In this document: positions 1 through 22,885 of the stretch, piece after piece | Numbering within the stretch: the stretch's first letter is position 1 | Layout of the letters: each line of letters starts with the position of its first letter | NCBI GenBank assembly: GCA_024224995.1 | Contig: JAAENB010000927.1 | Span: 1 to 22,885 of the forward strand | Reading direction: 5' to 3' | Length of the DNA: 22,885 nt | Source: a bacterium | GTDB lineage: Bacteria; Spirochaetota; UBA4802; UBA5550 | Made by a program: the position numbers and the translations under genes | The notes under the pieces: model-generated | The model's database searches: none | Told to the model about the DNA's origin: nothing | The model's input: only the letters and a program-made list of their open reading frames with translations

Positions 1-23
1 AAATAGTATTGCGAGCTGCATCT

Positions 24-117
24 GGCCTGGAAGTAGTATGGGCTCTTTGGGTTGTGAGGACTGTTTGAGCAACGCGAGTTCCGGAGCAATCCAAAGAGCC
101 CATACTACTTCAAGGCC
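24..117. repeat. Long inverted repeat downstream of the cluster
   Basis: The arms 30-50 and 91-111 are perfect 21-bp inverted copies (core AGTAGTATGGGCTCTTTGG). They extend to 24/117 with one mismatch. The 40-bp loop holds TTTGAGC-AACGCGAG-TTCCGGAGC, reminiscent of the short repeats inside the megasynthase gene. No open frame covers 1-200 and no T run follows the stem on either strand. Confidence 0.75.
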
Positions 118-168
118 CGCTCACAAGCAAAATTAAGTTTCTTGAGAGAGTTTCTTAAGAGCAACTAA

Positions 169-184
169 CCCCGCCCCGGCGGGG
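169..184. repeat. Small GC-only hairpin just past the end of the last gene
   Basis: CCCCGCC (169-175) pairs with GGCGGGG (178-184) 17 bp past the stop codon of the B12-radical SAM gene. The stretch of six A lies on the plus-strand right side, so on the transcribed strand the T run precedes the stem. It may still slow or stop transcription but is not a normal intrinsic terminator. The adjacent 135-160 holds an imperfect 13-bp tandem repeat (AAGTTTCTTGAGA / GAGTTTCTTAAGA). Confidence 0.4.
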
Positions 185-200
185 AAAAAATACACAGGTA

Positions 201-2426
201 CTAATTCAACATATTATTAAGTCCGAATTTTTTTACCAGTTTCAGGGTATAGTCCTCGTGTTTCCAGCGGTCATCCATTTCCGCCAGCAGTTGAATATAG
301 CTTTTCCCGTTCCGAACGGGCTCACTGGTAAGCCAGTTCTTAATATCTTTCGTAAGGCTCGACTGGAAAATAACGGGAAACCCAAAAGCCACGGAAGAGG
401 TCCTGAACCCTTTATTAAAATATCCTTTAAGCATCAGGGGAATATGGCGATGGATTTTATTAAAGTAAGTAAGGGCATCAAGAATATCCAGCTGCATTCC
501 CAGCATACTGGAATGCTCTGGTTTCGTGGTAACATACTCACCCTTTTCAAAACAGTATGCCAGGTTCCTCCAGGGCTCATCAAAGAGCTCCGGGGCAATA
601 TGGTTAAGGCAGCGTTTTTTTTCATTATGCCGCCTCGTGGCCCTGGTACCTTCCTGAGCCATTTCAGCGAATATCTGAACAGCATTGACCCCTAATTTCA
701 GCGCCTGTTTCGCCATTTTTTTCGCGTCACCTAAATTATAATTATCAGTGGAACAGACAAGCATGGCCAGGTTGGTAATCCCGGCCTCGTGAAGCGCGCG
801 CGCGGCTTCGGCATTTTCCTCCAGGCTCGACTTGACCATGCCTGCCACAGTACTGTTGTCGCTGCTGAGAATATCCTCATACCCAACCTGGTTCATATCG
901 AATCCAACACCATGCATGCGTTTAAGAAGATAAAAATTATACCGATACACGAAAATAAGGGCACGGGCGCTTATTTCAAGGGCAAAACCGGGAGAGCAGT
1001 TATAGGTCTTTTTAAACCGGTCCATTTCATCGATCATACGGGTAAATTCAATGTAATTACACCGGATCTCTCTCCCCATGAGTTCAGCTTTGTCGGGATT
1101 TTCAATTTCTCTGCTGGCGAAAGGCCGGAATTCCGGGTCCCGCAGTTCAGTGCGAAGAACCAGCTGCAGGGATTCAACAGCCTGGTCAAGGCTGCCCGGG
1201 TTTTGCGGAGAGACGTTTTTAAAAATAAGCTCTCCGCCCGTAGTATAGGGCAGACCCAGGTCTTCCAGGCGCAGTAAAATATTTCGATTCCTCTTTTGTA
1301 TAAAATCAAAAACCGGTTTGGGAATTATCAATTCATGAGTCTTTTTAAATTTTTTCTTTTTTTTATTTTTTTTATTTTTAAGATGATCAATATAATCGAG
1401 AACCTTCGTGAATTCAATATAATCAAAGGGGATATCTTTTTCTATGGCTCCGCCGATAATTGGGCTGTCATCGGTTATGAAAATAGAATAATCAAGAGGA
1501 TTTAACAATGGCTGGTACGACTTGTCTTTTTTAAGAAACCCCATATTGAGCAATACTTCAAAATTTTGAAACAAGCGGTCACAGGGAATATAATGGAAAT
1601 TATTCCTCATAATTTCTTTAACCTGGCAAAAGGAACAGTTATTAAGACAGCCCTGCTCGGAACCGGTAAAACAGTAAGTGGATATTTTTTCATAGTTGTC
1701 AATAACCGTTGGATTAAATACGATATCGGGAATTTCAGGAATGATCATATTTCCGGCTTTTTTTTCAAGACCCATAATACTGTTCTTGTTTACGTATCCA
1801 AGACCGTTAATTTTTTTCAACCTCGCGGAAGTTTCCTTCCCGGATCGAATAAGATCAACAAGCTGCAGCACGGCATTATACTGATCGTGCTGTAGAACAT
1901 ATTGAGCGCCGGGGAATTCATCAAGATCATCATTATAAACATTATTTCTTACCCGGGGCATTTTCCCTTTTCGCAAAACGTCCGACGCCGATTCAACCAT
2001 ACGGGTATGGGGACCGGTGGCAATGACTGTTTTATTCATTTCACGGGCCATGGCAATAATGACTTTTTGCGCCCAGGAATGGATCGTAAGAGCAGTAACA
2101 ATAACGCAATCCGATTCTTTGATGAGTTCCGTTACCCCCGTCAGGGTCGAAGCCTTCTCCGATATCCCGGGGATATAGACCGTGGCGGAAACGCCCTCTT
2201 GTTGGTTAAGAAGATTCGCGGCAAAAAGAGACCCCTGCATTGGAGACATGGGCGTGGCGAATTTGTTTTTTCTCTTTGAGTAGAGACCCCTGCCGTGGAA
2301 AAAAATCTTCGCGAAATCGGCAAGGCTGTTCCAGCGCTGTTTACTCATATCGTATATTGTTGGCGGATCAAATTCCAGCAAAAAATTCTGAGCCTCAAAG
2401 ATGGCGATGGTAAATGGTTTTTTCAT
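201..2426 (-). CDS. B12-binding radical SAM protein
   Basis: A 741-residue protein starting at the ATG at 2426 (MKKPFTIAIFEAQ). AAGGAG at 2436-2441, nine bases before it, decides this start; an in-frame ATG at 2465 would overlap the megasynthase and has no such site. The N-terminal part looks like a cobalamin-binding domain: SPMQGSLFAANLL (about residues 61-73), DCVIVTALTIHSWAQ (106-120), and KTVIATGPHTRMVE (132-145). The radical SAM cluster motif is CLNNCSFC, cysteines 260, 264 and 267. The order B12 then radical SAM is the usual one. A lysine-rich loop (about 350-362) is an oddity. It probably modifies the product or an intermediate, for example by radical methylation, but no substrate can be named. 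It follows the megasynthase by 19 bp and is surely co-transcribed. Confidence 0.88.
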   Translation of the reverse strand: MKKPFTIAIFEAQNFLLEFDPPTIYDMSKQRWNSLADFAKIFFHGRGLYSKRKNKFATPMSPMQGSLFAANLLNQQEGVSATVYIPGISEKASTLTGVTELIKESDCVIVTALTIHSWAQKVIIAMAREMNKTVIATGPHTRMVESASDVLRKGKMPRVRNNVYNDDLDEFPGAQYVLQHDQYNAVLQLVDLIRSGKETSARLKKINGLGYVNKNSIMGLEKKAGNMIIPEIPDIVFNPTVIDNYEKISTYCFTGSEQGCLNNCSFCQVKEIMRNNFHYIPCDRLFQNFEVLLNMGFLKKDKSYQPLLNPLDYSIFITDDSPIIGGAIEKDIPFDYIEFTKVLDYIDHLKNKKNKKKKKFKKTHELIIPKPVFDFIQKRNRNILLRLEDLGLPYTTGGELIFKNVSPQNPGSLDQAVESLQLVLRTELRDPEFRPFASREIENPDKAELMGREIRCNYIEFTRMIDEMDRFKKTYNCSPGFALEISARALIFVYRYNFYLLKRMHGVGFDMNQVGYEDILSSDNSTVAGMVKSSLEENAEAARALHEAGITNLAMLVCSTDNYNLGDAKKMAKQALKLGVNAVQIFAEMAQEGTRATRRHNEKKRCLNHIAPELFDEPWRNLAYCFEKGEYVTTKPEHSSMLGMQLDILDALTYFNKIHRHIPLMLKGYFNKGFRTSSVAFGFPVIFQSSLTKDIKNWLTSEPVRNGKSYIQLLAEMDDRWKHEDYTLKLVKKFGLNNMLN

Positions 2427-2435
2427 GGGTACTGT

Positions 2436-2441
2436 CTCCTT
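2436..2441 (-). promoter_or_regulatory. Ribosome binding site fixing the start of the B12-radical SAM gene
   Basis: AAGGAG on the minus strand, nine bases upstream of the ATG at 2426 and in the 19-bp gap after the megasynthase stop. It favours the shorter, non-overlapping start. Confidence 0.8.
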
Positions 2442-2445
2442 TCTG

Positions 2446-3261
2446 TTATTTATCGAGTATGGCATTCAAAATTGACGAGAACTCTGCAACTCCCGGTTTA
2501 GCAAATATTGAATAATGATTTCCCGGTATGGAATATATTTGAGACTCTTCGGCACTAAACGCTTTCCACGCGCTGCTATTCGTGATAAGAGAGTCTGCCG
2601 CTTTAAAAATATGTATCGGTGTTTTTATTTCCCCCCCGGGTATATACCTGGATTGAGAATTGGAAAAACTTCTAATGACATTCCATAAATAGATAATATC
2701 TTTAATATTCATATCACCATGATTTGGAATGAGCGCTTCAACGGACTCATGGAATCGTGTTGTAAGATTAGCGCTCAGAGCCTTGTTGTTCCGGACACTG
2801 TCCACGACCATAGGCCAGAGATTCTGAATATTTGACTCATTTTTAATTTGATCTTTAATCTCACTTTCCGGCAGCAAGGACAGAATAATTTCTTTTTCCG
2901 AATCCGCGGTAAAATCCGGATGCGCTTCCCAAAAACCCTCCTCCGGAGCCACGGAATCGGCGATTGCCAGCATACCGGTCTCTTTATTCTTTTCCTCAAG
3001 CTGCTTGACTATCTCAAACGCAATACCGCCGCCAATGCACCAGCCAAAAATATTATACGGCCCATCCTCCTGGACCTGCTCGATCATTGCAACATATTTT
3101 TGAGCGGTCTCTTCAACAGAGATATTCTTTGGCGTAAAATTCCCGAACCGGTCCGCTTTTATGCCATAGCAGCTTATACTGTCATGCAGGCCGGAACTGA
3201 GTTCAATATAGTCATCGATCTCACCGCTTCCGGCATGTATAAAGAAAAGATTCCTGTTTTT
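2446..3261 (-). other. Domain: type I thioesterase with cysteine nucleophile
   Basis: Residues 4960-5230, an alpha/beta-hydrolase release domain. FFIHAGSGEIDDY opens it, the nucleophile elbow reads GWCIGG with Cys5034 (codon TGC at 3037-3039) where most NRPS thioesterases have serine, the acid is probably Asp5061 (IADSVA) and the base His5208 (GNHYS). Cysteine thioesterases are known from lines that make strained rings, such as the obafluorin beta-lactone and the sulfazecin beta-lactam. The release chemistry here is an inference. Confidence 0.88.
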
Positions 3262-6200
3262 TTCATCGTTCTTCTTGCTCTTCTTTAAGAGTACAATATT
3301 TTCATCAACAGGGAGCCCTGGGCAAGCCCCTTCTTCGTTGACCGTATTGGCAATATAACGGGCAATGCTCTTAATGGTTGGCGCCTTTAACATTTCCGCC
3401 AGGGGCACGGAGATATTAAACTCATTCCTGATCTTTGACGCCATTACGGCAGCCTTGAGAGAGTGGCCGCCAATGTCGAAAAAATTCGCGTTTACCCCAA
3501 TTGTTTCAACACCGGTTTCCAGAACTGCTCCCCAGATCTCTGCCAGCTTTTTTTCAATGTCCGAGGACGGAGCAATATATTCCATGCCCGTATCATTCTC
3601 CGGCAGCGGCAGGGCCTTTTTGTTAACCTTGCCGTTCGCGTTTAACGGTATCCTGTCCACAAACATTATATACGACGGAACCATATAGTCGGGCAATGTT
3701 TGCGCAAGGAACTCTTTAATTTCCAATATATCTATGGACGATGAACCGGGAACAACATAGGCGCAAATAGTTTTGTCTCCGGAAGTATCTCCCATGGCCT
3801 GTACCGTGGCTTCTTTAACGCGCTCATGATTCAGCAAACGGTTTTCAATTTCACCCAATTCAATCCGGAAGCCCCGGACTTTTACCTGGTTGTCTACCCG
3901 CTCCAGGTATTCCAGGCTGCCGTTGTCCAGCCGCTTCACCAGGTCTCCGCTTCGATACATAAGCTGTTGTGCGGCAAAGGGATTCTTCATAAACTTTTCA
4001 GCGGTCAGCTTCTCATCATTGAGATACCCAAAACCAACCCCCTGCCCTGAGATATATAACTCGCCCGGAACACCAATGGGGACCGGCTTTTGGCCGGAAT
4101 CGAGCACATAGAGCTCCGCGTTATTAATCGCGCTGCCAATGGGGATTGTCCTCTCTTCAGGAAAATTTTTATCGACCCGGTAATACGCGCAAATGTCCGT
4201 GCATTCCGTTGGTCCATAGGTATTCACCACTTCCGCGTTACACCGCGAAGAGCGCAGCCAGGGGTGTAATTTCTTCATTGATATTGGCTCACCGCCAAGG
4301 AAGACCTGCCGTAATGATGACAATTGATCAAATGAACCGGCTTCAAGAATATTATAAAACATCCCGGGAGTACAGTTTAAAAGACTTATTTCATTGCTGT
4401 CAATTTCCCGGACAAGTAAGGCGGGATCAAAAACATCACTCTCCGGGATGTGCAGGGTTCCGCCCGTTATAAGGGGCGCGTAAATATTCTTTTGCGTAAG
4501 ATCAAAGCTGAGGGATGTCATGAGTAACAGCCTATCGTGCTCATTAATATTAAACTCATCGGCATACCAGTTCATGAGGTTCATAAAACTCCGGTGGTAC
4601 ACGCCCGCGCCTTTTGGTTTTCCCGTTGACCCCGAGGTAAAGATCGTATAAATAAGATCATCGGGCTTATTGCTTCTTTTCGGGTTATCAATAATTTCAC
4701 CGGCCGCCGTTTCCGGGAGATGATCCAGCATAATTATTTCCCTGGCTGATCCTGTTTTTACGTTCTCGTCCTTTGGAGAAAGCGCGATGCCCGGTATGGT
4801 TTTCAAGGTCTCTTCTCCGGGAAGTTTCCTGTTATTTTTTAAGATCTCCCCAACAAGTTCCGCGGTTGTGGCCTCCCCCTCACTGAGCACAACAAGGTCA
4901 ATATTCCTGTCCTGAAGGATCGAAGCATAGTCACTGGTCCCATAAGGGCCGCCGGCAATTATTGGAACATCAATCCATTGTTTAATAAGAGACGCGCTCT
5001 TATGAAATAAATCTTTATAGAACGTTAGCGTACGCAATCCAACAAGATCCGGTTTGAAATCATTAACCAGTTTTTTCAGTTCATCAAAACTGTTAAAGTC
5101 AATACGGGCTTTCGCGATTTTGCCGTTAACCTTTTCGCCAAACTCTTTGTTCAAATATGTTTGCACGTACATGAGTCCAAGAGGCGGGTCTACCACGTCA
5201 TATAACATATCCCCACTCTCGTCACTAAAAAACTGGGACAGGTCAAGGAAAAGAATTTTTAACGCGTCGTTCGCCGGTTTATTCGGTTTAAAATGTTTTT
5301 GTATGCTCGCATTCAAATTCGGAACCGCACTCTTTTCTTCGCTTATAAATTCACTGCCTGTAGTGAGCGAAGCCGAACCACCGGCGAGACTCACAAGATC
5401 GGAAAAGGAGTTAATTTCCATGGGAAGATAACTGTTATATTTTTGAACAACTTCATCTTCCGTCATGATCTTCCGTTCATGGAAGAGCACCTGTTCCAGC
5501 CGTTCTTTTGATAAAAAGTATTCATTAAGGAAATCGGCCTGGTAGCTAAGGGAAAAACTCTTATCAAACGGCAATGTTTCGGGAAGCTCGTGCCAGGCAG
5601 TGTTCGCCGACCTTAGAATTTGCTCCCGGGATACGCCGTTTTCAAGGGCCAGTTTTTCCATATCCGTGTTTGGATATATTCTGAGAATATGAACATAGGG
5701 AAAATGAAGCCACCTGGAGCTCTTTATAAAATCCAGCGTGAGCATGGCTTCCTCTTCGGTCTCCGTAGGGAATCCGTGCATGGTAAAGAATTCCAGGATT
5801 ACCTGTGGGTGTTTTTCACAAAAATAATCTACGTTTTCCCTGAGTTTATCCAGGTTAATATTTTTCCGGATGAGCTTCTGAAGCCGTGGAGACGCGGTTT
5901 CCAGGGCCAGGGCAAGGTTTACCACTCCCGCTTCAACCATGAGGTCAATATAATCTTTTGTTAAAATATCCCCGCGCATTCCATTGGGAAAAAACAACTG
6001 CACATCCAGTTTATTCTTAATGATTAATTGAAAGAAACGGGTGCTGTTTTTCCTGTTTTGATTAAAGATATCATCAATTATGGCAAATCTTCGAACGCCC
6101 ATATTGTAGTAGAGCCGTATCTCTTCAAATATATTCTCAGCAGAACGGTACACGTGAGTCTTGGGCCATATCTTGTGGCAGTAGGCGCATTTATACGGGC

Positions 6201-9200
6201 AGCCCCGGGTTCCCTGTATCGACATACAGTGTTTAACCATAGCCTGGCCAATATACTTTCCATACTCGTCGTAATTCACCAGTGACCTGTCCGGAATGGG
6301 AAGACTGTTTAAATCGGCTATTTGCTCGCGTTTGGCAGTACAGTGTATTATTCCGTTTGTTTGCTGCAAGTCCTGAAGCGTGGTAAACGAACGATCATGC
6401 ATGGCGCTTTCTTTTGTCAGTACAACCCCCGCGCCGCAGCTTTCAAGCATATGCTCAATTCGTTCACCGGGATACTGAAGATCAATAGGAGCGTAGGCAC
6501 TGCCCGCTTTCAGTGTCCCAAGAATTCCGGCTGCCATATCCGGGGACCGGTCCAGCATAATGCCGGTAATACGGTTTGGCGCGGCTCCTTTTTCCAACAA
6601 GGCGCCCGCGATAGTGTTAGCCCTGTTGTTCAATTCCCGGTAGGTGATTGATTCGTCACCGTGTTGTACGGCAATACTCCCGGGAGTTTTTTCGACCTGT
6701 TCTTCAAAGAGCTCATGGATACATTTGTTACGGGGAAACTCTTTCGCGGTTTTGTTGTATTCCACCAGAAGATCCTGTTTTTCTTCCCCTGTTAAGAGAT
6801 CCAGCTCCCGGATCTTTTGCCCGGGATTCGCGATGATCGTATCCAGTAAGGTCCGGTAATGCCCGGCCATCCGCTCTATGGTTCCGGGTGAAAAAAGATC
6901 AGGGTTATATTTGAGATGCAGCACATAGCTTTCCTCAATTTCTATTATTTCCAGGGTGAGATCATATACGCCATCCTGTTGTATGTTCAGCATGGGTTCA
7001 AAGGCTGCGTTCAGCGGCGCGTCACTAAACGTTTTATTAATACTTCGTACCCAGTTCTGAAATACAAACACCGTCTGAAACAAAGGGCTCTGGCCCAGGT
7101 TTTTTTGAATATTGATCTCCCGGAAAAGATCGTAAAAAGGATAATCCCCGTGGGTCATGGCTTCAAGGATAGTTGTTTGTACGGTATCCAGAAGATCTCT
7201 AAATGAGAGCGAGCGGTGAACCTGTGCCCGTAAAACAACCATGTTAACGAAATATCCAACAAGGTCTTCGAATTCCGTTTTAGACCGTCCGGCGACCGGG
7301 GCTCCCAGAAGAATATCTTCCTGGTTTGAGTATTTATGCAGCAACACGTAATACGCGGATAGAAGCAATGAAAATACGGAAACATTTTCTTTTACGCTGA
7401 GGTTTTCTATTTTTTCCGCCAGTTCACCGGGGAGCTCTTCTCTGTATACCGCTCCCTGGTAGGTCTGGATCTTTGGCCGGGGAAAATCCGTTGGAAGATT
7501 TAGCGCGGGAATATCTCCCGAGAGTTTCCGAAGCCAGTATTCCCTGCTTTCAGCACCCTGGTCGTTTTCAATGAGTCCTTGCTGCCATGAAACAAAATCC
7601 TTATAGGTCGCTTTCAGCCGCGGCAGCGCTGCCTCTGTTCCTGAAAGTTCTGCCTCGTAGAGTTTTAAGAGGTCTCCCGAAAGGGGAAGAAAGGCTGGTC
7701 CGTCAAAAACAATATGATGCACGGTAATAAGCAAAATATGCGAGCTCCTGGAAAATGAAAAAAGGTGAACCCGCATAAGGGGACCGGTTTCGAGGTTAAA
7801 GGGTTCGCGCACCTTAGTTCGTATATATGATTCAATATCATCACGCGTTCCCCCTTTGTTTTCCAGGTCTTCCGTTTCAAATATAAACTCCGCGCCGGGT
7901 TTAATATATTGTACATATTCATCATCCTGAAGAGCGATATGCGCCCGCAAGCTTTCATGGCGAAGGACCAGCTGCGTAAACGCGTTTTTCAGGGCAGCGG
8001 TGTTCATTTCTCCTGCTATTTTAAAAGCCGTTGGAACGTTGTAGGCGTAGTTCTCCGGTGCCATTTCGTAAATAAGCCATAATCCTTTTTGGCCCGACGA
8101 TAAGGGATAGAAGGATGCTTCTCCGGGAACGGGTTTTGCCGCAGCAGCTTCAATGCGGATTTCACGATTGCCGATCCCTTGATCCAGAAGATAGTGCGCA
8201 AGCAGTTCTATTGAATTGTTTTTAAATAATACTTTTGGAGTCAGTTTGATATTGTACATATCAACGATCCGGTTTACCAGTTTCATACCGCTTAACGAAT
8301 CAAAACCGTAATTGTTCAGAACAACGGACGGGTCAAGATCCTTTTCCGGGATCTTCAATAAGTCCGAGACTATCCCTTTCAGGTTTTCCCTGATGCGATC
8401 AAGAGAGTTCGAGGTTCCAGGTTCCAGGTTCGATGCTTCGGCTCCGCTCAGCACAGGGGTTGGAGATTTTTTAGCCGGAGTCACCTGACGGAAGTTTTCC
8501 TGTTCCGGAGACGTTTCAATCCAGTAGCGGTCCTTTTTAAAGGGATACGTTGGCAGCGGTATCCTGACGGGTGTTCCCGGTGAATAGAGTTCTTCCCAGG
8601 GGATGGAAATTCCATCGACCCAGAGCTGCGCCATCTTTACCCGGTCTTGTTTCTCTATTATCAGTTTGATAATTTCATCACCCAGGTCTCCCTCGGTGAG
8701 AATACCGGTTTTTTTATTTTTAGCGTTCCCCGCAACAATGTTCAAATCTTCGCCACCCGCGATATACGTCTTTAAGCGCTGAGAAGCCTCATCTATATCA
8801 CCGGCGATAATCGCCAGGCGGGCGTCCATTTCCTCCCGGCCAACATGCAGCGTATAGGCGATGTTTTTTAAGGAAGTTCCGCTTGCTGCCTGCCCCCTAT
8901 CCCCCTGTGGGGGCACCATCCCCCCCTTACCCCCCGAGGGGGAAAAAGATGCCGGACAAGGATTCACCTCTGACTGCTCCGGTTCCTCTCCAGAAACTCT
9001 TGCGCCCCCTTTGGGGATGCGACCCCTGCGAGGGGTTGGAGGGCCAGTAGCCCCGTCTAGAAAAAACAATAGCCGTTCCGCGTAGAGCTTAAGCTGTGTT
9101 TCATCTTTTGCCGAAAGAGTTATAACCTCAGTAGTTTCTTTTGTTATTTCTTCAGAGACGGTCTCTTCCGGTTCATCCCCGGTGTATTCTTCCAGGATAA

Positions 9201-12200
9201 TACTGGCATTGGAGCCTCCTGCGCCAAAGGAGTTGATAGCGGCTCGCAGAGGTCGCACCTCTCGCAGAGGTCGCACCCCTTCGGGCCGTTCCCAGGCGGA
9301 GAGTTCTTTTTGAATATAAAACGGAGAATTCTCAAGTTTGAGATTCGGATTCACGGGATCGGCATTAAGGGACCGCACCAGCTGTTTATGCTTCATCTGG
9401 AGCAAAACTTTCGTGACCTGGGCAATACCTGAAGCGGCTTCAATATGCCCGATATTTGATTTAACAGAGCCAACAGCGCAGAACTGTTTTTCCTCAGTAT
9501 GTTTTTTAAACGCTTTGGTTAAACCCGCCATTTCAATAGGATCTCCCAGGGCCGAACCGTTTGCCGCGGTTTCCACATAACTGATGGAACCGGCGTCGAT
9601 ATTTGCTTTTTTAAGAGCCGCAGTTATAAGCTCGGCCTGGGCATTTGGACTGGGAACCATGTAATTGCTGGTCCGCCCCCCGTGATTAACCATGCTTCCC
9701 TTAATGACCCCGTAAATATGATCCCTGTCTTTTTTGGCAAGGGAGAGGGGTTTCAGCAGCAGCGCGCCAACCCCTTCGCCGGGAACCATCCCGTCTCCGT
9801 CCCCAAGGCTTTTACTCTGCCGGCTGCTTCCCAGCATACCGAATTGATTAAGGGCCAGGTACTTTGACGGACTTAAACAGAGATTCACGCCCCCGGCAAC
9901 GGCAACAGAACATTCCCCGCGCCTGATGCTTTCACATGCCAGGTGTACAGTTGTTAAAGAAGAGGCACAGGCAGTGTCAACAGCAAGACTGGGCCCCTGG
10001 AAATTAAATATATAAGAAACACGGTTTACAATGGACCAGTATGAGGTGTTTAAGAGCATCTTCCCAACCCCGGCATGGGCGGCAATAAGAGGATACTGCT
10101 GCGACATTGAACCAATAAAGACACCGGTTTTTTCCCCGTTCTTAAGCTGTCTCTTGCTTAAGGTCTTTCTCGTGTACGCGGCATCCTCCAAAGCTTCCCA
10201 TATGGTCTCCAGAAGCAGCCGGAGCTGGGGGTCCATCCACTCAGCTTCAGCCGGAGAGATATTAAAAAATAAGGGGTCAAATGTATCAACATCATTTAAA
10301 AAACCGCCCCATTTGCACGCGGGTTCTTCAGCAAGATCACTGTATGGGGCGTAGGCTTTTTCAAAATCCCATCGTTCTTTTGGGATCTCCGAAATGGAGT
10401 CAACTCCATCCCGTAGATTATTCCAGAATTCCGTAAGATTAGCAGCCCCGGGATACCGTCCGCTCATGCCGATAATGGCAACAGGTTCGGCATTGGCATC
10501 GATATGAACAATCTCATATTCTTTGTTCGCGGCAAAACGATTCCTAAACGAACCTCCCTTTTGATTGGAATCGGGAGACGGAACGCCTTCTTTATGATGC
10601 CGGTAATACTCATCAAAGGTATCCCAATATTCTTCAAAAAGGAATTCCGCGAATGAGCCAATTGAGGTATGTTCAAAAAAGATCACCGGAGTTAAATCGA
10701 GATCGTATTTATCGTTCATCCGGAACGCGAACTCCGTAAACGTAATAGAGCCGAATCCATAGGAACTAATATCTTCTTCAAGATCAATCTCCCGGGTATC
10801 TATTTTGAGAATAGCCGACACAATAAGCAAAATATCACGCTCAATTTTTCGAAGCAGTTCCCTGTTCTCGTGGGGGGTTTTTGTTTTGTTTTCCTGTTTT
10901 TTTACGGCTGATCTTTTTGCAAGACCTAATATTTTCATCATTTTGCCGCGGTCGCCTTCCAGAACAATAACCTGGTTTCCCTCAAGAGAAAGCGCCCGGG
11001 TAAAGGTATCAAGCCCTGCAGCAGTGGCAAGCTGCCCAATTCCCGTGTATTTTTCTATAATCTTTTGGGTTTTTTCATCAACGGTCATTCCCCCTTCTTT
11101 CCATAAGGGCCAGTTAATGGAAATGGTTTTACCATGCCGTTCCCCGGCACGCCGCTCTGCCTCTCTCTTTTCGGCAAAGACGTCCATAAAACTGTTGGCA
11201 TAGGCATAATCCGACTGCCCTGAATTTCCAATCACAGCAGTTAGCGATGAAAAGAGCACAAAGAAATCAAGGTTTTCACTCCCCAGAGCCTCATCGAGAT
11301 GAACCGTACCGGACACCTTTGGCGCCAGAACGGAATTGATCTCTTCTTCTGTTTTGTTTATGATAAATGAATCCCGGATTATCCCGGCACCGTGGATTAC
11401 CCCATTGATCCCGCCCTGGTCAGCTTTTATTTGACCAATAAGGCGCGTCGCCTCTTCTTTATTCGAGATATCCGCCTTAATATAAATAATCGCAGAACCA
11501 CGGGATTCAAGTTCTTTGAGTCTCTTTTCTTTTTGATGAGACAGATCGGACCGTCCCGTAAGAATAAGGGTTACGTTCTTTTGCGTGGTAAGGTATTCCG
11601 CGAAGATCAATCCCAGGCCTCCGGCTCCGCCCGTAACCAGGTATACGCCATTTTCCTTGAGCAATTCCGGGTCCGCCGCAGGAAACTCTTCCGGCTTAAT
11701 TTCTTTTATTTCACGGACAAATCTTTTGTTATTCTCATAACGGATCTCAGTTCCATCGGAAGGAAGTGCTTTGAATTCATAATCCGCAAGAGCGGCAAGT
11801 TCAGCAGGGTCTCCAGCTCCCCCCTTAAGCTCAATTGTTTTATACAGGAACTTACGGCTCTCCAGGCCAATGGACCGGGCAAAACCGCTCATAGCCGCGT
11901 TATACGGATCGATATCCTCATCCGGGTTTCCGTAAAAATAAAGAAAGTGTACCGGGTCACCGGGTTTTTCTTTCATCAAAGCCCGGCTGAGATAAAAAAC
12001 AGAATAGATGCTGTTATGAAGCCGGTCCGCTCCGGAGAAGGGCCAGGCAAAAATGATCTTATTGGGAAACCGGCCTTTTGCCGTTAACGCTTTTACCAGT
12101 TTTTCATAATCAGCAGGAGAAGCCGGATCAATCTCGTATACCGGGTTTTCCCCATCACTGTCAGTTTCAGAGAAGCTTTTCCCGGGCATTACAAGAGTAC

Positions 12201-15200
12201 TATTCGACAACGAGTCGTTAAGACTATGGTTGTAATCAAAGACCAGGGTTTGCGAAGACTCATCAGCAGAAGCAGCCACGTCGGGCCTTTTTTCTACCCA
12301 GGTGTTTCTGCAATAGATCTTTTCGGCAGGTTTAGTGTTTGCAGCCGCTCCCTCAACCAGGGCCCTGGCTGAGAAATCTTTTATATCAACAATAAGTTGT
12401 CCCGATCCGTCTACGATCTGTATATTGAATTTTTTTATCCCAATATTTTGAGTTTCTCCGGTGGTCTCCGTAACATGGGCATAACACGTTTCCGGTATTT
12501 TTTTAAGTATTTCAATCTCACCCAGGGCGAAAGGAAGATAGGGAGTCCCTGCCGATGAACCGCTCTCATCTTTTAATCCCGATATGGCTTGCAATGCTCC
12601 ATCGAGCATAGTGGGATGGAGTAAAAACTCTTCGGCTCCCTCTTTCCCGTTCCGCAGCGACGCAGGCAGCTCCAGCAGCGCAAGAACTTCTTTTTCATTG
12701 CTGAATAATTCCTTAAGAGCCCGGAAACGCGGACCGTATATCATATTCTTTGATTGAAAAAGGGTATAACAATCTTCACCGCTCATGGAATGAGAACATC
12801 GTTCTTTTATTTCATTGATATTAAGATAGGTCACTTCCGCGCTCTTCTCTTCAGGAGATCCGTAAATAAGTTTGCCCTGTCCGTGTATTACTGATTCATG
12901 ATTTTCGTCCCTGGAACTGACTTCATATCTCGCGTCATTCCTGCCGGGATAGAGACTCATGGTTAGCTCCGGAGGTTTCTCCATAGTCATGACCGGTCTT
13001 GGCCACACAATATTTTTAATTTTTCGAACCATCCCTTCACCCGCGACGGTCCCTGCGGCGCGTGCCATTTCAATATAGGCAACTCCGGGAAAAACTTTAT
13101 ACTCTCCCACAAGATGATCGGCAAGAAAAAATTCAGTACCGCGAAATTGCGCCGTGAATTTTTGTTCACTAAAGGTGGATGAATTTTTTTCGAGTAAGGG
13201 GTGATTCCAGGCAATACGGGTTCTTTTTTTTGTTTCTCCGCCGGGAACCCGGAAACGTTTTCTTTCAAAGGGATAAACCGGTAGAGAGATCCGCTTTGCC
13301 GCTCTGCCGGAATAAAGCTGCTTCCAGTCAACAGTACCGCCATGGGCCCATATTTTCGCGAGTTTGTTAAACTTTCTGCCCGCTATTGCGAGCCGGACAA
13401 ACTCTTTCCCTTCTTCCCCGTTAAAGAGGTCTCCATCTACGGAAGAATCGGCAGGGGTTGTTTTTTTATTACAGCTTCCCCTGAACAGGTTCTCTATATT
13501 TTTTTCAGCGTTAGTATATTGCGACAGTTTTTTAACCAGTTCTTCAATACCCGCAACAACCAGGGCAAGCCGTTCATCCATTTCCTCTCTTCCGGTCTGT
13601 AAGGTAAAAGCAATATCGCGGAGGTTTGTGTTCCCGCTGGCGTTTTGTTTTTCCGCGTACTCCCGCAACAGCCGGGAATATTCATTAAGCCTCTCCTCAT
13701 TCTTTGCCGAAAGGATAATTATTTCAGTCGAGTTTTTCACTTCCGGAAAAATGGTTTCCTGCCAGTATTCTTCTATCAGGATATGAGCGTTTGTTCCGCC
13801 AAATCCAAAAGAGCTCACCCCCGCACGGAGCGGTATGGCCCTTCCCTCACGGTCAATTAAATTGTTCCATTCGGTGGTTGTATCGACAACATAAAAAGGA
13901 CTTCCCGAAAGTTCAATGTAGGGATTTAATTGCTCAAAATGTATGGTAGCCGGAATTTTTTTATGTTTCATTGCCATGACCACTTTTAAAACACCGGCAA
14001 TTCCCGCTGCCGATTCCAGGTGGCCAATATTGGTTTTTACCGCTCCAATGCCGCAGTGCTTTTCTTCCGGTGAATTAGCGGAGGCGAATGCCTTTTTAAG
14101 GCCGTTCACTTCAATTGGGTCGCCAAGAGGAGTTCCGGTACCATGCGTTTCAATATAGCTGATGGTGCCAGGGTCAATGTTCGCCTGCCGATAAACGCTC
14201 GTTAATAATTCCGCCTGGGCATTAGGGTTTGGCGTTGTTAATGAATTGGTACTACCGCCGTGGTTAATGGCACTTCCCAGAATAACAGCATAAATATTAT
14301 CCCCATGAGCAACAGCACTGCTTAAGGGTTTTAATAAAACAGCCCCTGCCCCTTCTCCCCGGATGTAGCCATTTGCCTTTTTGTCAAAGGTTTTGCAGCA
14401 TCCGTCGGGGCTTAACATTCCGGCCTTTCCAAAGGAGATAAATATTTCCGGCAGCAAAATTACATTAACGCCTCCGGCAATTGCCAGGTCACAGGTTTTG
14501 TTCCGGATAGCTTCAACGCCCCGGTGTATGGCAACCAGGGAACTTGAACAGGCCGTATCAACTGCCTCACTTGGTCCATGAATATCCAATAGATAAGAGA
14601 TCCGGTTCACCAGCATTGCGTGAGAATTCCCCGTTGAAACAAAGGGATTCGCGTCTACATTATTTTCCTTTAAGAGGTGAATATAATCGGAGGTGGAAAC
14701 CCCGGCATACAAACCGGTTTTACTTCCCCCAAGGTCCGATGCCTTGTAACCGGCATCTTCAATTGTTTTCCAGACTGTTTCAAGAAAGATCCTCTGCTGA
14801 GGGTCCATCAGTTCCGCTTCCATTGGGGATATGCCGAAAAAAGCCGCGTCAAAACAGTCAACTGCATTAATAAAGCCGCCCCATTTAATATTTGTTTTAT
14901 TCGCTTCCTTTACGGGATCGCCATAATACTCCTGCCAGCTCCAGCGGTCTTCGGGAATTTCAGCAACCAGGTCCCTGCCCGCTTCAAGGTTTTCCCTGAA
15001 GGCTTCCATTGTATCGGACCCGGGCATAATGCCGCTGATGCCGATTATTGCCACGGGTTCAACTCCGTTGTCCGGGATAGATAACTCTTCGGCAGCGGGT
15101 GTATCACTGGGCCCGGGTCTATTCTCTGCTAATGCGGCTTCAGCGCTGCTGCCGTAAAACCGGGACAGGATATCGGAATATTCATTGCATAGATATTGAA

Positions 15201-18305: not shown

Positions 18306-19451
18306 TTACGGGGCTTCGGTGTAATATTCCCGGAGTCCGAATTGCGCGATCATGATCTGTTGGATCTGGGAGGTTCCTTCGATGATCTCAAGAACCTTGG
18401 CTTCCCGGAAGAAGCGTTCAACAGGAAAGTCGGTGCAGCAGCCGTTTCCGCCATGAACCTGTACCGCGTCAAGAGCCACCTGCATGGCAATCTTCGAGGT
18501 AAAATATTTTGCCATATTGGTTTCCATTACGGCGTTTTTCTCTTTATTCTTTCTCATCTCACCGGCTCGCAGGCATAAGGCGCGGGCGGCGTGAACTTTC
18601 GTAACCGCGTCCCCGATCATACCCTGTATAAGCTGGTAGTTGTAGATTTTTTCTCCTGCCTGTTCCCTGCTTCTGGCGTACAAGACCATTGCTTCAAGCG
18701 CTCCCTGGGCAATGCCGGTACCGGCCCAGGCAATGCTGTACCTGCCGTGGTCAAGAGCGGTTGAGGCCACATAGGCGAAGCCGCCCCCTTCTCTACCGAG
18801 AATATTTTCTTCCGGAACGGAAACATTGTTGAATTCCACTTCAGCGATGTGGGAAGCCCTGCCCGCGAGCATGCCCGTAATAGCTTTCGTGGAGACTCCT
18901 TCCTGTTCCCTGTCTATGAGAAATGCCGTTATTGCGCTGCCGTTTGAGGCAATGACCAAAAACATATCCGCTCTTCCGCCAAAAGTAATCCACTTCTTTT
19001 TTCCATTGATGATATAGCTGCTTCCCTCTTTCCGGTAAGCGGTTCTAACACTTTTCGCGTCGGACCCAATCTCCGGTTCCGACAGGGCAAAAGCGGCAAT
19101 CTTTTCTCCCGATGCCATAGCAGGAAGCAGTTCGTTTTTTTGTTTATCCGTACCCCACCGCACAATGGTTTCACCAACCAGTGAGGTATGCACGGTTAAA
19201 AGAGCCCGGGTCGATGAACAGACTTTGCCAATCTCCTGAGTAAATAATCCGTAATAAACCGGGTCCAGCCCCAGGCCGCCGTATTCTTTTGGAAAGGGCG
19301 CCGCAAGATACCCTTTCTCTGCCATTGCAGCGATTAAATCTTCCGGCAAGGCGCAATCCTCTTCAAATTTGGAAACATACGGTTTAATATGCTCCGTGGT
19401 AAATGACTTCACTTCATTAATTATTTTATCCTGACAGGTGCTATCAGTCAT
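18306..19451 (-). CDS. Acyl-CoA dehydrogenase family flavoprotein (FkbI/ZmaE-like)
   Basis: A full-length 381-residue acyl-CoA dehydrogenase. The FAD and substrate motifs are FALSEPEIGSDA (residues 121-132) and KKWITFGG (152-159). The catalytic base is expected at Glu358 in EIIEGTSQIQ, next to the conserved FFREAK segment, and QVHGGNG (331-337) is present. In hydroxymalonyl- and methoxymalonyl-ACP clusters a member of this family (FkbI, ZmaE) takes part in oxidising the ACP-bound three-carbon unit. AGGAG lies upstream of the ATG and the gap to the ACP gene is 44 bp. A generic beta-oxidation enzyme cannot be excluded from its own sequence; the assignment rests on the four-gene set. Confidence 0.9.
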   Translation of the reverse strand: MTDSTCQDKIINEVKSFTTEHIKPYVSKFEEDCALPEDLIAAMAEKGYLAAPFPKEYGGLGLDPVYYGLFTQEIGKVCSSTRALLTVHTSLVGETIVRWGTDKQKNELLPAMASGEKIAAFALSEPEIGSDAKSVRTAYRKEGSSYIINGKKKWITFGGRADMFLVIASNGSAITAFLIDREQEGVSTKAITGMLAGRASHIAEVEFNNVSVPEENILGREGGGFAYVASTALDHGRYSIAWAGTGIAQGALEAMVLYARSREQAGEKIYNYQLIQGMIGDAVTKVHAARALCLRAGEMRKNKEKNAVMETNMAKYFTSKIAMQVALDAVQVHGGNGCCTDFPVERFFREAKVLEIIEGTSQIQQIMIAQFGLREYYTEAP

Positions 19452-19495
19452 TGCTTACTCCTGATCTTTTTTTTATTTTTAAATGGACGGTAAAA

Positions 19496-19747
19496 TTACG
19501 CTGCTTTTTTTTCTATAAATGATTGGATGTTATTTATGGTACTGAAATTTGAGATATTCAAATCGTCATTGCTTATTTCCATGTTAAATTCACTTTCAAT
19601 AAAAGTCACCAGTGTCATGGCAAACAGGGAATTAACAAATCCCAGTTCAAAGAAATTATCATCATCCGTAAATTCCAAGTCACTCTCAAATGCTACCAGG
19701 TTCTCTTTAATCAGGTCCCTGATCTTTTGCGATAGAGTTTCGCTCAT
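19496..19747 (-). CDS. Free-standing acyl carrier protein for glyceryl/hydroxymalonyl units
   Basis: An 83-residue acidic carrier protein with the phosphopantetheine site in LGFVNSLFAM, the serine being Ser40. The replacement of the common LGxDSL by FVNSLFAM followed by a VTFIESEF helix is the pattern of the dedicated ACPs that work with FkbH proteins (FkbJ, ZmaD). It is expected to carry glyceryl, then 2-hydroxy-3-oxopropionyl, then hydroxymalonyl intermediates and to hand the unit to an acyltransferase. GAGGT lies nine bases before ATG. It sits between the FkbH-like and acyl-CoA dehydrogenase genes, as in known sets. Confidence 0.93.
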   Translation of the reverse strand: MSETLSQKIRDLIKENLVAFESDLEFTDDDNFFELGFVNSLFAMTLVTFIESEFNMEISNDDLNISNFSTINNIQSFIEKKAA

Positions 19748-19764
19748 TGTATTGTACCTCTTCT

Positions 19765-20814
19765 TTATTTTAATATAAGTTTTATGTGCGGCGGGTAATC
19801 CCGTATTACCGAAAGATCGTTCTCAAAGAGAATCGTTCCATCATCTTCTGAGAATACTTCTTTGAAGTTGGCGAATTTGTAGGATATATACATCATCCGG
19901 TTCCTGTCTGTTTGCTTAAAATCAGCCAGAATTTTTTTGTTATTCTTTTTTGCTTCTTTCATTATATACGTCAGGAGTATGGTGCCCACACCCCGGGACA
20001 TAACCCTGCACGACATGAGCAGTAGTTTTAAGTACCAGGCATGCTCGGTTATTTCAACAAGGGCCAGGCCAATCTTACCGTAGGAACCGTATTTGTCTTT
20101 CAGCTCGCAGCTAAGAAGTATATGGGAATCCGATTTTCTAAACTCATTGAGTTCATCATAATCAAAGGTCTTGCCCGTGGCGTTCAACTGGTTTGTTCTA
20201 ACCGTAAGCTCGGCAGCCCGCTGCAAGTCTTCTTCACGGGCTTCGGCAATGGTAAATTCCAGATCCAACAAGCGTAAAAATTTATCACCGGCGCCCTTAT
20301 ATTCCTTTTCTTTATCGTTTCGTTTTATATCGGCAAGGTACATCTCTCTTCTTTTAGCCGAATCCTGTGTAACAAAACGGGGATTCAAAAAAGAGAAATC
20401 CGGCAATGACCGGTACTCTTCGGCATCAACGCATACCACCGTAGAGTGAACACTATTCACTTCATCGCGCTCAAATTCCTGGTCATCAATAAACAGTATG
20501 GTATCCATCCCAAAGTTGAGATTTTTTTGAATATTTTCTATTGAAGTTGATTTGGCGTTCCAGTTAATTTCCGGGTATAAAAAATAATGATCCACTCCAA
20601 ACTCTTTGAGCTTGTTCATGGCATCATCATGATTATTTTTACTGGCAATTGAATGCAGAATGCCGCGGGAATCGAGTATTTCAAGGATCTCAACTACCTG
20701 CGGTTTTAAAACAACCTCGCCAGGCTCAAGAAGCGTCCCTTCCCAGAGCGTATTGTCCAGATCCCATACAACACATTTGATTTCCTTGTCGACTTGCAGA
20801 TTTCTTTGATTCAT
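19765..20814 (-). CDS. fkbH: FkbH-like HAD-family glyceryl-ACP synthase
   Basis: A 349-residue protein matching the FkbH family in length and motifs. The N-terminal HAD-like domain has VVWDLDNTLW with the nucleophile pair Asp18/Asp20, SIASKNN as motif II, YFLYPEINW, and FIDDQEFERDEV as the acidic motif IV. The C-terminal half looks GNAT-like, with LLMSCRVMSRGVGTILL. Known FkbH proteins capture the glyceryl group of 1,3-bisphosphoglycerate, remove phosphate and load it on a dedicated ACP, the first step toward methoxymalonyl- or hydroxymalonyl-ACP. The dedicated ACP gene follows 17 bp downstream. The start is well supported by GGGAGG six bases before ATG, overlapping the preceding stop. Function is confident at family level. 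Confidence 0.95.
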   Translation of the reverse strand: MNQRNLQVDKEIKCVVWDLDNTLWEGTLLEPGEVVLKPQVVEILEILDSRGILHSIASKNNHDDAMNKLKEFGVDHYFLYPEINWNAKSTSIENIQKNLNFGMDTILFIDDQEFERDEVNSVHSTVVCVDAEEYRSLPDFSFLNPRFVTQDSAKRREMYLADIKRNDKEKEYKGAGDKFLRLLDLEFTIAEAREEDLQRAAELTVRTNQLNATGKTFDYDELNEFRKSDSHILLSCELKDKYGSYGKIGLALVEITEHAWYLKLLLMSCRVMSRGVGTILLTYIMKEAKKNNKKILADFKQTDRNRMMYISYKFANFKEVFSEDDGTILFENDLSVIRDYPPHIKLILK

Positions 20815-21677
20815 TATTTACCTCCCGAATATGTATAAAACCCTTCTCCCGATTTTTTTCCCAGGAGCCCGGCATGGACCATTTTTTTGAGCAATGGGCA
20901 GCACCGGAATTTCGGATCCTGGTAACTTTCGTATAAAACTTCCAGGGAATTTACCACCGTGTCCAGCCCAATGAGGTCGGCTGTTTCAAGGGGCCCCATT
21001 TTATGCCCGTACCCCTGCTTAAAAATAAGATCAATCTCTCCGGCTCCGGCAACACCGTCCTGAATGAGCATTGCCGCTTCGTTCATAAATAGATGAGACA
21101 GCCTGTTAGCAACAAACCCGGGGAAATCATTAACGACAATGGCTTTTTTATTGAGTGTTTTTAAAAAGGCGGTAATATATTCAACCGTATCGTCTGAGGT
21201 GTGATATCCCCGAACAGTCTCTACGATATTTTTTAAGGGTACAGGATTCATAAAGTGCAGACCAATAACTTTTTCCGCGTTCGGCAGGAGAGAAGCTATC
21301 CGGGTAATGGAAATACAGCTTGTGTTTGCCGCGTAGTATGTTTCAGGGCCGCAGTGCTTTTGCAGCTCCTCATAGAGGTCTTTTTTGGCGTCCCAGTCTT
21401 CCGTAATATTTTCAATTATGATTTTGACCTTGCTTAATGACGAATATTCAGTTGTGAATTCTATATTATTGAATATATCTTCAATGGACAGATCTTTCGC
21501 GTCCTTTTTCATCATTTTAACAAGTTTGAATTCTTTTGTTATTTTTTCTCTTGATTGCTCTAAAATAGAGCTTTCCCTGTCTATTAATAACACGGTATGC
21601 CCGTAACAGGCCAGGTCGAGCGCTACATCACTTCCCATAATGCCCGCGCCAATAACGGCGATTGTTGTTTCTGCCAT
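20814..21677 (-). CDS. 3-hydroxyacyl-CoA dehydrogenase family protein (hydroxymalonyl-ACP pathway)
   Basis: A 287-residue protein of the NAD-dependent 3-hydroxyacyl-CoA dehydrogenase family at the usual length for single-function members. The N-terminus is a Rossmann fold with VIGAGIMG at residues 8-15, and RES after the second strand suggests NAD. The catalytic region reads GLHFMNPVPL with His141, then VVNDFPGFVANRL around Asn191 and a C-terminal helical dimerisation domain ending in GKKSGEGFY. In the hydroxymalonyl/methoxymalonyl-ACP pathway this family (FkbK, ZmaG) oxidises C1 or C2 of glyceryl-ACP; that role here is inferred from the three adjacent genes. The ATG at 21677 follows a GAGGGGA ribosome site. 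Its stop overlaps the next start by one base (TAATG), showing translational coupling. A fatty-acid beta-oxidation enzyme is the alternative, but no thiolase or hydratase is nearby. Confidence 0.9.
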   Translation of the reverse strand: MAETTIAVIGAGIMGSDVALDLACYGHTVLLIDRESSILEQSREKITKEFKLVKMMKKDAKDLSIEDIFNNIEFTTEYSSLSKVKIIIENITEDWDAKKDLYEELQKHCGPETYYAANTSCISITRIASLLPNAEKVIGLHFMNPVPLKNIVETVRGYHTSDDTVEYITAFLKTLNKKAIVVNDFPGFVANRLSHLFMNEAAMLIQDGVAGAGEIDLIFKQGYGHKMGPLETADLIGLDTVVNSLEVLYESYQDPKFRCCPLLKKMVHAGLLGKKSGEGFYTYSGGK

Positions 21678-21947: not shown

Positions 21948-22885
21948 TTAATCTACGGAAACTCCAAAAACCTCGATTTCCGAGAGTCCTGTATTATGCC
22001 CTGCGGCTTCATCAATAACAAGCTTCACCCACTTGATCTCCCGGGCCGGGAAATTTATAATATGCCCGCTGCCATTATTGGGAAGCGTACCAACGCTAAC
22101 AGAACTGCCGTCACTAAACAGGAGGCTGCCGCTGGTAATATTATCACTGGAATTTGGCCGGTCATACAGAATAACCGAATCCACGCTAAAGGTCCGTTCC
22201 CACTCAAGAGTAATCCAGGCACCGGCTGTTTCACTCCGGGTAGACCACTCCCTGGAATAGTCTCCGGGATAGCCGTCTTTCTCTTCATCAATGGCCTTTA
22301 TCCCGGCCTGGGCCGAGCCCTGAGAGGAAACCAGAACCCTTGAAAAAGGAGCAATGTTCCCATACCCTTCCTCAAGAGGATAACCAAACACCTGCATCTC
22401 CGCAAGACCAACATTCACCCCTTCCGCATCGGAAATATTCAGTTTAACCCAGCTTACTGTTTTAGCGTCAAACGTAACAGTATGAGCGGAACCGTCTTCA
22501 GGAAGAGAACCCACTTCAATAGTGCTGCCGTCGGAGAATTCAAGGAGAGCCCCATTAATATTGTCAAGAGGGTTTGGCCTGTCATATAATACAACAGAGT
22601 TAATAGTCCGGTTAACATTCCACGAAAGAGAGATCCAGGCGCCGGAAACCTCATTTTGAGAAGCCCATTCCTCCCGGTAATTTCCCGGATACCCGCCGGT
22701 CTTTCCATCTATCGCTTTAAGCCCGGTCTGGGAAGTACTGCTGCTTTCCGAAGAAACCGCGACCGAAGCATCAGGAGCGATATTCTTCACGCGGGCCGGG
22801 TAAACCTCAAATTCAGAAATACCAACCTCAGACCCGGCCGCTTCATCAATCGTAAAACGGACCGAATCAATTGTTTTTGGCGGAA
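21948..22885 (-). CDS. Tandem discoidin-like (F5/8 type C-like) repeat protein, 3' part only
   Basis: The frame is open to the right edge of the window, so the gene's start is missing; about 311 residues are visible, ending in TAA at 21948. The GTG at 22790 is unlikely to be the start, because the codons upstream of it continue a third repeat (DEAAG...GISEFEVY). Two complete repeats of about 138 residues follow. Each begins NIAP, carries a conserved YPG(N/D)Y-REW motif, then ISLSW or ITLEW, a VxLYDRPN strand, a FSDGS strand, a TLP/SLP turn, a WVKL strand, and ends GL(A/S)E(M/I)(Q/E)VFG. This strand pattern resembles galactose-binding discoidin-like beta-sandwiches, usually secreted carbohydrate- or surface-binding modules. 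No catalytic domain is visible in this part. It lies upstream of a hairpin and a likely promoter, so I think it is a neighbour and not a pathway gene. The family call is from fold-like pattern only. Confidence 0.7.
   Translation of the reverse strand, partial: PPKTIDSVRFTIDEAAGSEVGISEFEVYPARVKNIAPDASVAVSSESSSTSQTGLKAIDGKTGGYPGNYREEWASQNEVSGAWISLSWNVNRTINSVVLYDRPNPLDNINGALLEFSDGSTIEVGSLPEDGSAHTVTFDAKTVSWVKLNISDAEGVNVGLAEMQVFGYPLEEGYGNIAPFSRVLVSSQGSAQAGIKAIDEEKDGYPGDYSREWSTRSETAGAWITLEWERTFSVDSVILYDRPNSSDNITSGSLLFSDGSSVSVGTLPNNGSGHIINFPAREIKWVKLVIDEAAGHNTGLSEIEVFGVSVD

Follow-up and report, generated by a model that had tools for sequence, protein, structure and literature searches.

The window analysed here is the whole of a 22,885-nucleotide stretch (contig JAAENB010000927.1, assembly GCA_024224995.1) from a bacterium of the Spirochaetota, and it carries on its minus strand a gene for a combined polyketide synthase (PKS) and nonribosomal peptide synthetase (NRPS). 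The last adenylation (A) domain of this synthetase is interrupted between motifs A2 and A3 by a radical S-adenosylmethionine (SAM) domain followed by a vitamin B12 (cobalamin)-binding domain. Interrupted A domains are a known kind, but this sort of insert appears to be new, and it is in addition a circularly permuted variant of the enzyme class to which it belongs. We consider it probable that this permuted unit is a cobalamin-dependent radical SAM enzyme that C-methylates, in line, the amino acid loaded by its own module.

The gene (2446-18138, minus strand) is a single open frame of 5230 amino acids (aa) in the list of open reading frames, and Pfam places in its translation the domain order AT-AMP-binding-ACP-KS-DH-KR-ACP-KS-ACP-C-A(interrupted)-PCP-TE, the first AMP-binding domain being read by us, from its place, as a fatty acyl-AMP ligase (FAAL). 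All parts of the interrupted module lie on the minus strand. It opens with a condensation (C) domain (6766-8115, residues 3342-3791; PF00668, 375.7 bits) and the N-terminal piece of the A domain with motifs A1-A2 (6364-6714, residues 3809-3925), which ends in TTLQDLQ. The inserted unit of radical SAM domain, linker and B12-binding domain then runs over approximately 4747-6357 (residues ~3928-4464) by Pfam and family alignment. Within it, the radical SAM domain (5725-6213, residues 3976-4138, CxxxCxxC at 3980-3987) matched PF04055 with 71.2 bits against a gathering threshold of 29.5, and the B12-binding domain C-terminal to it (4855-5187, residues 4318-4428), which is of Rossmann type by sequence only, matched PF02310 with 34.6 bits against 32.1. 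The remaining A domain with motifs A3-A10, the specificity code DLKNFGTDIK and Lys4837 (3589-4656, residues 4495-4850) is followed by a peptidyl carrier protein (PCP; 3352-3549, residues 4864-4929; PF00550, 61.7 bits) and a thioesterase (2482-3252, residues 4963-5219; PF00975, 80.9 bits).

The A core is complete on both sides of the unit and in one frame, with the auxiliary domains at the known A2-A3 site. Before the insert stand ITYRELN (3831-3837) and A2, LKAGSAYAPID (3876-3886); the insert itself carries the iron-sulphur (Fe-S) motif GCPYKCAYC (3979-3987; Cys 3980, 3984 and 3987). After it follow A3, TSGSTGKPKG (4501-4510), YGPTEC (4641-4646), YRSGDL (4728-4733), RGFRIELGEIE (4755-4765), A9, LPDYMVPS (4815-4822), and NGKVNKKAL (4835-4843), which contains Lys4837. 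The motif numbers are those we take to apply from the usual A-domain scheme. Pfam matched AMP-binding to the interrupted piece in two stretches (274.9 bits) and AMP-binding_C with 52.8 bits. The distance from A2 to A3 is 625 residues in the window protein, against 60-89 in 333 of 396 measurable A domains. On a tree of A3-A10 halves, the nearest neighbour of the window is an uninterrupted A domain of P0002 (code DLKNFGTDVK), which is 53% identical from just before A3 to A10 and 45% identical through A2, with the unit missing between.

The first-pass annotation of this DNA had placed an interruption between A2 and A3, with the other A motifs and Lys4837 intact and the frame continuous, and the motif positions, the Pfam domains between them and the single open frame bear it out; the three families it had named, PF04055, PF02310 and PF00501, all matched in the interrupted A domain. 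Its insert of about 570 residues at 4693-6408 has boundaries that we draw a little further inward, to leave about 540 residues. Both domains of its complete B12-radical SAM unit are present, in an order, radical SAM then B12, that reverses the usual one and had been overlooked.

To place the unit among its relatives, protein sets were taken as the best 120 of larger match lists, 360 proteins in total. A search with residues 3790-4860 returned 1151 proteins, of which the best 120 long matches, P0001 included, were analysed, and a second search with the A domain alone contributed the best 120 of 4673 matches. The family is widespread and the window is not an oddity. By script, 73 near-full copies of the unit were counted in 53 of the best 120 of the 1151 proteins, 20 of which carry two copies, and the source names in that set include Acidobacteriota, Aminicenantes, Halanaerobiales, Clostridium, Desulfopila, Kapabacteria and Vulcanimicrobiota. 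P0042 comes from Desulfopila sp. IMCC35008, which is probably a cultured strain. The A-domain-only search added Bacteroidales, Omnitrophota, Desulfobacterales and Herbinix, and PF04055 Radical_SAM was present in all of the best 120 of its 4673 matches. Spacing is conserved: A2 and the first cysteine are 103-106 residues apart in all but a few, and A2 and A3 about 610-655, where motif patterns placed all three motifs in 78 of the 120 proteins of the A-domain-query set and at least one pattern failed in the others. The first-pass annotation had known of no A domain with such a unit; relatives with the same insertion point, junctions and spacing are in fact common. One contig alone covers the window, which would allow for an assembly artefact or a decayed passenger, but the same junctions occur in many contigs from several phyla, one relative lies within a 4.07-Mb contig, and in 311 of the 312 full copies, which come from 291 of the 360 proteins, CxxxCxxC remains intact. 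We therefore reject an assembly artefact, and regard artefact or decay together as practically negligible.

Searches by genome were less productive. No match was found in 396 genomes from the phylum of G001, a result that shows little; the class of G002 gave 1 match in 291 genomes, and the family of G142 gave 1 in 11, in the same genome. Scans of genomes and viral contigs with two generic radical SAM patterns found distant enzymes, at most 37% identical among the matches listed; locus L001, described next, was selected from these for closer analysis. In the sources, the unit-bearing genes are annotated merely as A-domain proteins or YgiQ-like radical SAM proteins, so the radical unit is easily missed.

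The order of domains in the insert sets it apart from the class 1 cobalamin-dependent radical SAM enzymes (TokK, TsrM and OxsB by the review definition, and likely CysS, ApyD and BchE). These share with the unit a CxxxCxxC domain and PF02310, but they are free proteins that begin with the B12 domain, whereas the unit is embedded in an A domain and carries the B12 domain last. A marine metagenome-assembled genome, locus L001, has a series of ordinary radical SAM genes in which the B12 domain comes first, and both halves of the unit match its enzymes at 32-36% identity. Against seven L001 proteins, the insert matched five twice in swapped order and two in the radical SAM part alone; in one protein, insert residues 16-258 align to 147-396 (36% identity, E 1e-45) and 408-572 to 17-175 (35%, E 1e-19). 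These swapped matches rule out an ordinary B12-first order in the insert. The L001 run (1-7408) consists of five B12-first genes arranged head to tail and would be plausible raw material for a permuted fusion. Mmp10 is described in a review as the only characterised class member in which the cobalamin domain follows the radical SAM domain (PMC13331322), an order that Mmp10/DUF512 enzymes share with the unit. Their cobalamin domain, however, is reported to be four-stranded and modified (PMC13331322), while that of the unit gives a PF02310 match and a weak one to the TokK Rossmann domain.

The permuted enzyme also occurs on its own, because stand-alone relatives, taken as proteins of at most 610 aa with a match near the start, share the radical SAM-first order. 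They make up 85 of 120 proteins listed and are 50-62% identical to the insert, and fourteen of them align with it end to end. The new termini of the permuted unit fall at the old joint between the two domains, and the permutation would bring the ends together and so make the enzyme insertable. An acidic tail like QFNDDLEDE was seen in 26 of the 85 proteins of at most 610 aa and in 0 of 275 other proteins, and is perhaps a docking tail for work in trans. We also considered LNSLP at the insert start and LDHLP at its end as the duplication scar of a tandem fusion; this was set aside because the stand-alone relatives in the alignment lack the second copy, and the A domain itself may account for a stretch REI..LD at the insert end, which was found in 43 of 97 interrupted and 3 of 338 uninterrupted A domains.

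Most copies of the unit occupy the same site as in the window. Of the 73, 65 lie between A2 and A3 halves, 2 (P0003 and P0006) at A8-A9 and 6 between the A domain and the carrier protein, as in P0017, where the unit is free between a complete A domain and the PCP. In the other five of these six (P0008, P0040, P0041, P0046 and P0057) an A2-type half and the unit are present with no A3-A10 half found downstream. The next C or PCP domain downstream is a PCP for 72 of the 73 copies, and neither was found for the remaining one. Copies inside an A domain would have a PCP in this place in any case, and the weight therefore lies with the six copies outside it. This arrangement bears on the improbable alternative that the unit is an independent enzyme lodged in the A domain but acting on a later chain, another module or a partner protein. 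The stand-alone relatives of the same order agree with that alternative, as they need no A domain, but where the unit lies outside the A domain it still precedes a PCP before any C domain, apart from the one copy with neither, and its lineage partly follows the substrate of the A domain as described below.

The unit has also been gained or lost repeatedly. In P0005, the A domain at residue 1981 has a short loop in place of the unit between retained insert flanks (..FPVLQD and CREILMLD..), and for this reason looks like a natural loss. Trees of units, A3-A10 halves, inserts and C domains were built by quick methods. The unit tree comprised 118 units, all 73 NRPS copies and 45 of the 85 stand-alone ones, and on it NRPS and stand-alone units are mixed (11 changes, 3 forced by well supported branches), with the A8-A9 pair forming one clade among A2-A3 copies. 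The A3-A10 tree was built from 53 interrupted domains, those of the 65 that aligned well enough, and 108 uninterrupted ones from the same proteins. Presence of the insert needs 27 changes on this tree, of which well supported branches require 17; for predicted substrate, counted over the rows where one could be named, the figure is 6. This pattern could arise from gains, from losses or from exchange of A-domain parts. On the insert tree, built from the 43 copies with a readable code in their A domain, 15 substrate changes are needed against 25.3 in shuffles, with none of 200 shuffles as low; clusters are formed by the proline (3 changes), threonine, valine and glutamine copies.

Several partial or divergent forms were observed beside these copies. 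Five proteins of 724-727 aa (P0132, P0135, P0150, P0153 and P0162) carry an N-terminal A-domain piece matching PF00501 before the unit and lack the A3 motif, and so share the shape of A2 half plus unit with P0046 and others. P0241 (1122 aa, Aminicenantes) joins the unit to PF19864, which we take to be a radical SAM-type domain, and lacks an AMP-binding domain. The relative in the 4.07-Mb contig of genome G142 (L170, 12806-19255, plus strand) has about 490 aa between its A core and PCP with no Pfam match at E 1e-5, perhaps a second insert at A8-A9; its neighbourhood also holds a distinct B12-first radical SAM gene and a further A domain, which carries a nitroreductase-type insert.

To predict substrates, specificity codes were read with GrsA numbering from 53 interrupted A domains, in which Asp235 is kept in 52 and Lys517 in 50 (the other three being gaps). 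We take the codes to stand for proline-like (14), threonine-like (11), valine-like (6), isoleucine-like (5), glutamine-like (5) and serine (1) substrates, with one leucine code and 10 others. The leucine code is given in PMC7524897, where DLKNFGSDVK is called homoserine (Hse) by antiSMASH 4.1.0. The window code, DLKNFGTDIK, is identical to DLKNFGSDVK at 8 of 10 positions, which suggests that the interrupted module probably activates homoserine. With a thioesterase next, our guess for the product is an N-acyl-homoserine, free or as the lactone.

In the reaction that we propose, the A core would activate the amino acid, probably homoserine, and load it onto the neighbouring carrier protein. The inserted unit would bind a [4Fe-4S] cluster, SAM and methylcobalamin; a 5'-deoxyadenosyl radical would abstract hydrogen from an unactivated carbon, to which methylcobalamin would donate a methyl group; the beta carbon is the likely site. 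The C domain would then couple the modified residue to the polyketide chain, after which the thioesterase would release the product. The best NCBIfam match of the insert is ApyD (98.1 bits against a cut-off of 750), which is reported to make beta-methyltyrosine in a peptide (PMC10635010). In TokK, Trp76 lies under the cobalt (PMC13331322), and at the facing position of the unit at least 299 of 312 copies have F, Y, L, I, V or M, a weak hint of methylation. CysS is described as methylating a carrier-bound substrate in an NRPS pathway (PMC8992657).

The stereochemistry of the loaded residue was approached through the C domains downstream, which were sorted by preceding module: 45 after interrupted modules, 28 after epimerisation (E) domains and 421 after plain modules, of which 70 were used. 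For 44 of the 45 C domains after interrupted modules, the nearest C domain of the other kinds is a plain, non-epimerised one, and the loaded residue therefore most likely stays L. As controls, the nearest neighbour was of the same kind for 27 of 28 C domains that follow E domains and for 68 of the 70 that follow plain modules, on a quickly built tree that gave a warning of some long branches. This result makes it very improbable that the unit is a radical epimerase inverting the alpha carbon of the loaded amino acid, although the wide substrate range would suit action at the alpha carbon and radical SAM peptide epimerases exist, such as EreD (PMC9259500). The placement of the C domains is not the only point against epimerisation. 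To our knowledge, epimerases of the EreD kind have no B12 domain.

With the residue likely to stay L and with methylase-like matches, in-line radical C-methylation is favoured, and another in-line reaction of a cobalamin-dependent radical SAM enzyme, such as oxidation, desaturation, cyclisation or cross-linking of the BchE or OxsB kind, is its main rival, which we think unlikely. Several enzymes of the class are reported not to methylate (PMC13142503). The best match, however, is a beta-methylase, the predicted substrates are diverse amino acids with unactivated carbons, and the residue beneath the cobalt, though placed by a weak alignment, resembles that of TokK in being hydrophobic or aromatic and differs from OxsB, which has Asn there. 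Other observations weigh against C-methylation of the module's own residue. The second NCBIfam match of the insert is BchE, which is not a methylase (94.4 bits against a cut-off of 481.35) and which fits the rival reaction; none of the 25 NCBIfam families among the matches listed (of 37) reached its cut-off, so that membership in a named radical SAM family was rejected; and the TokK alignment is weak, at 17.4 bits for the Trp76 stretch. No single carbon is an obvious target, because the A domains span many amino acids. The isoleucine copies do not cluster on the insert tree (100 of 500 shuffles as low), and the tracking of substrate by insert lineage may partly reflect joint descent of A domain and insert.

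The first-pass annotation had suggested a functional interrupted A domain with in-line radical methylation. A functional-looking domain is supported by the intact Fe-S motif, the B12 domain and the intact A core, and action in line by the A8-A9 copies, the copies between A domain and PCP and the partial substrate tracking; methylation of an unactivated carbon is the likeliest predicted chemistry. It had not noticed that the unit is circularly permuted, that the family is widespread, that stand-alone relatives exist or that the substrate is probably homoserine.

Interrupted A domains such as TioN and MarQ (A2-A3) and KtzH and TioS (A8-A9) resemble the present case in carrying a catalytic unit in one frame at a classical site that changes the loaded residue in line. 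Their inserts are methyltransferases, oxidases or ketoreductases, whereas the window has a radical SAM and B12 unit. The insert kinds named in PMC11355689, a 2024 review of A domains, are methylation, Ox and KR, and the word "radical" is absent from its main text; those mentioned in work on recombination in NRPSs are methyltransferases, ketoreductases, oxidases and monooxygenases (PMC8097286). No description of a radical SAM unit in an A domain was found in the full-text literature, judged by titles and the beginnings of abstracts, in a body of work that leaves most subscription journals outside and does not cover the two main surveys of interrupted A domains. CysS is a similar cobalamin-dependent radical methylase for a carrier-bound substrate (PMC8992657), but it is a separate protein, while the unit is built into the synthetase. 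The two differ in a further respect. CysS reportedly has the ordinary B12-first order.

More broadly, and with somewhat less than even confidence, we propose that these units form a plug-in class of permuted B12-radical SAM methyltransferases which is widespread, can occupy either classical site and C-methylates carrier-bound residues one at a time at unactivated carbons (such as the beta carbon in Thr, Val, Ile, Pro, Gln or homoserine) in diverse, largely uncultured bacteria, the window making a C-methylated N-acyl-homoserine, possibly a lactone. Known interrupted A domains, as far as the text of PMC11355689 shows, perform polar N, O or S methylation, oxidation or reduction. If the proposal is true, in-line tailoring would extend to unreactive carbons, giving a route to bulky beta-branched and quaternary residues and making such residues predictable from sequence. 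The unit would also be a natural circular permutation that may have made an enzyme insertable, and its gains, losses and changes of site could guide engineering.

Immediately downstream of the synthetase gene lies one for a 754-aa radical SAM-like protein (201-2465, minus strand), a possible partner, with a weak Radical_SAM match (E 0.0051) below the gathering threshold. Its start overlaps the synthetase stop, and the two are therefore probably co-translated. The protein contains CLNNCSFC, and by eye its N-terminal part resembles a B12-type Rossmann domain; it gave no match at E 1e-8 among the collected relative loci and proteins. On the other side of the synthetase, the genes at 18306-21677 (minus strand) match acyl-CoA dehydrogenases, FkbH and 3-hydroxyacyl-CoA dehydrogenases, a set which we take to supply a hydroxy- or methoxymalonyl-ACP extender unit. 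A partial open frame at 21948-22883 (minus strand) has, by eye only, two repeats of sugar-binding (discoidin-like) appearance.

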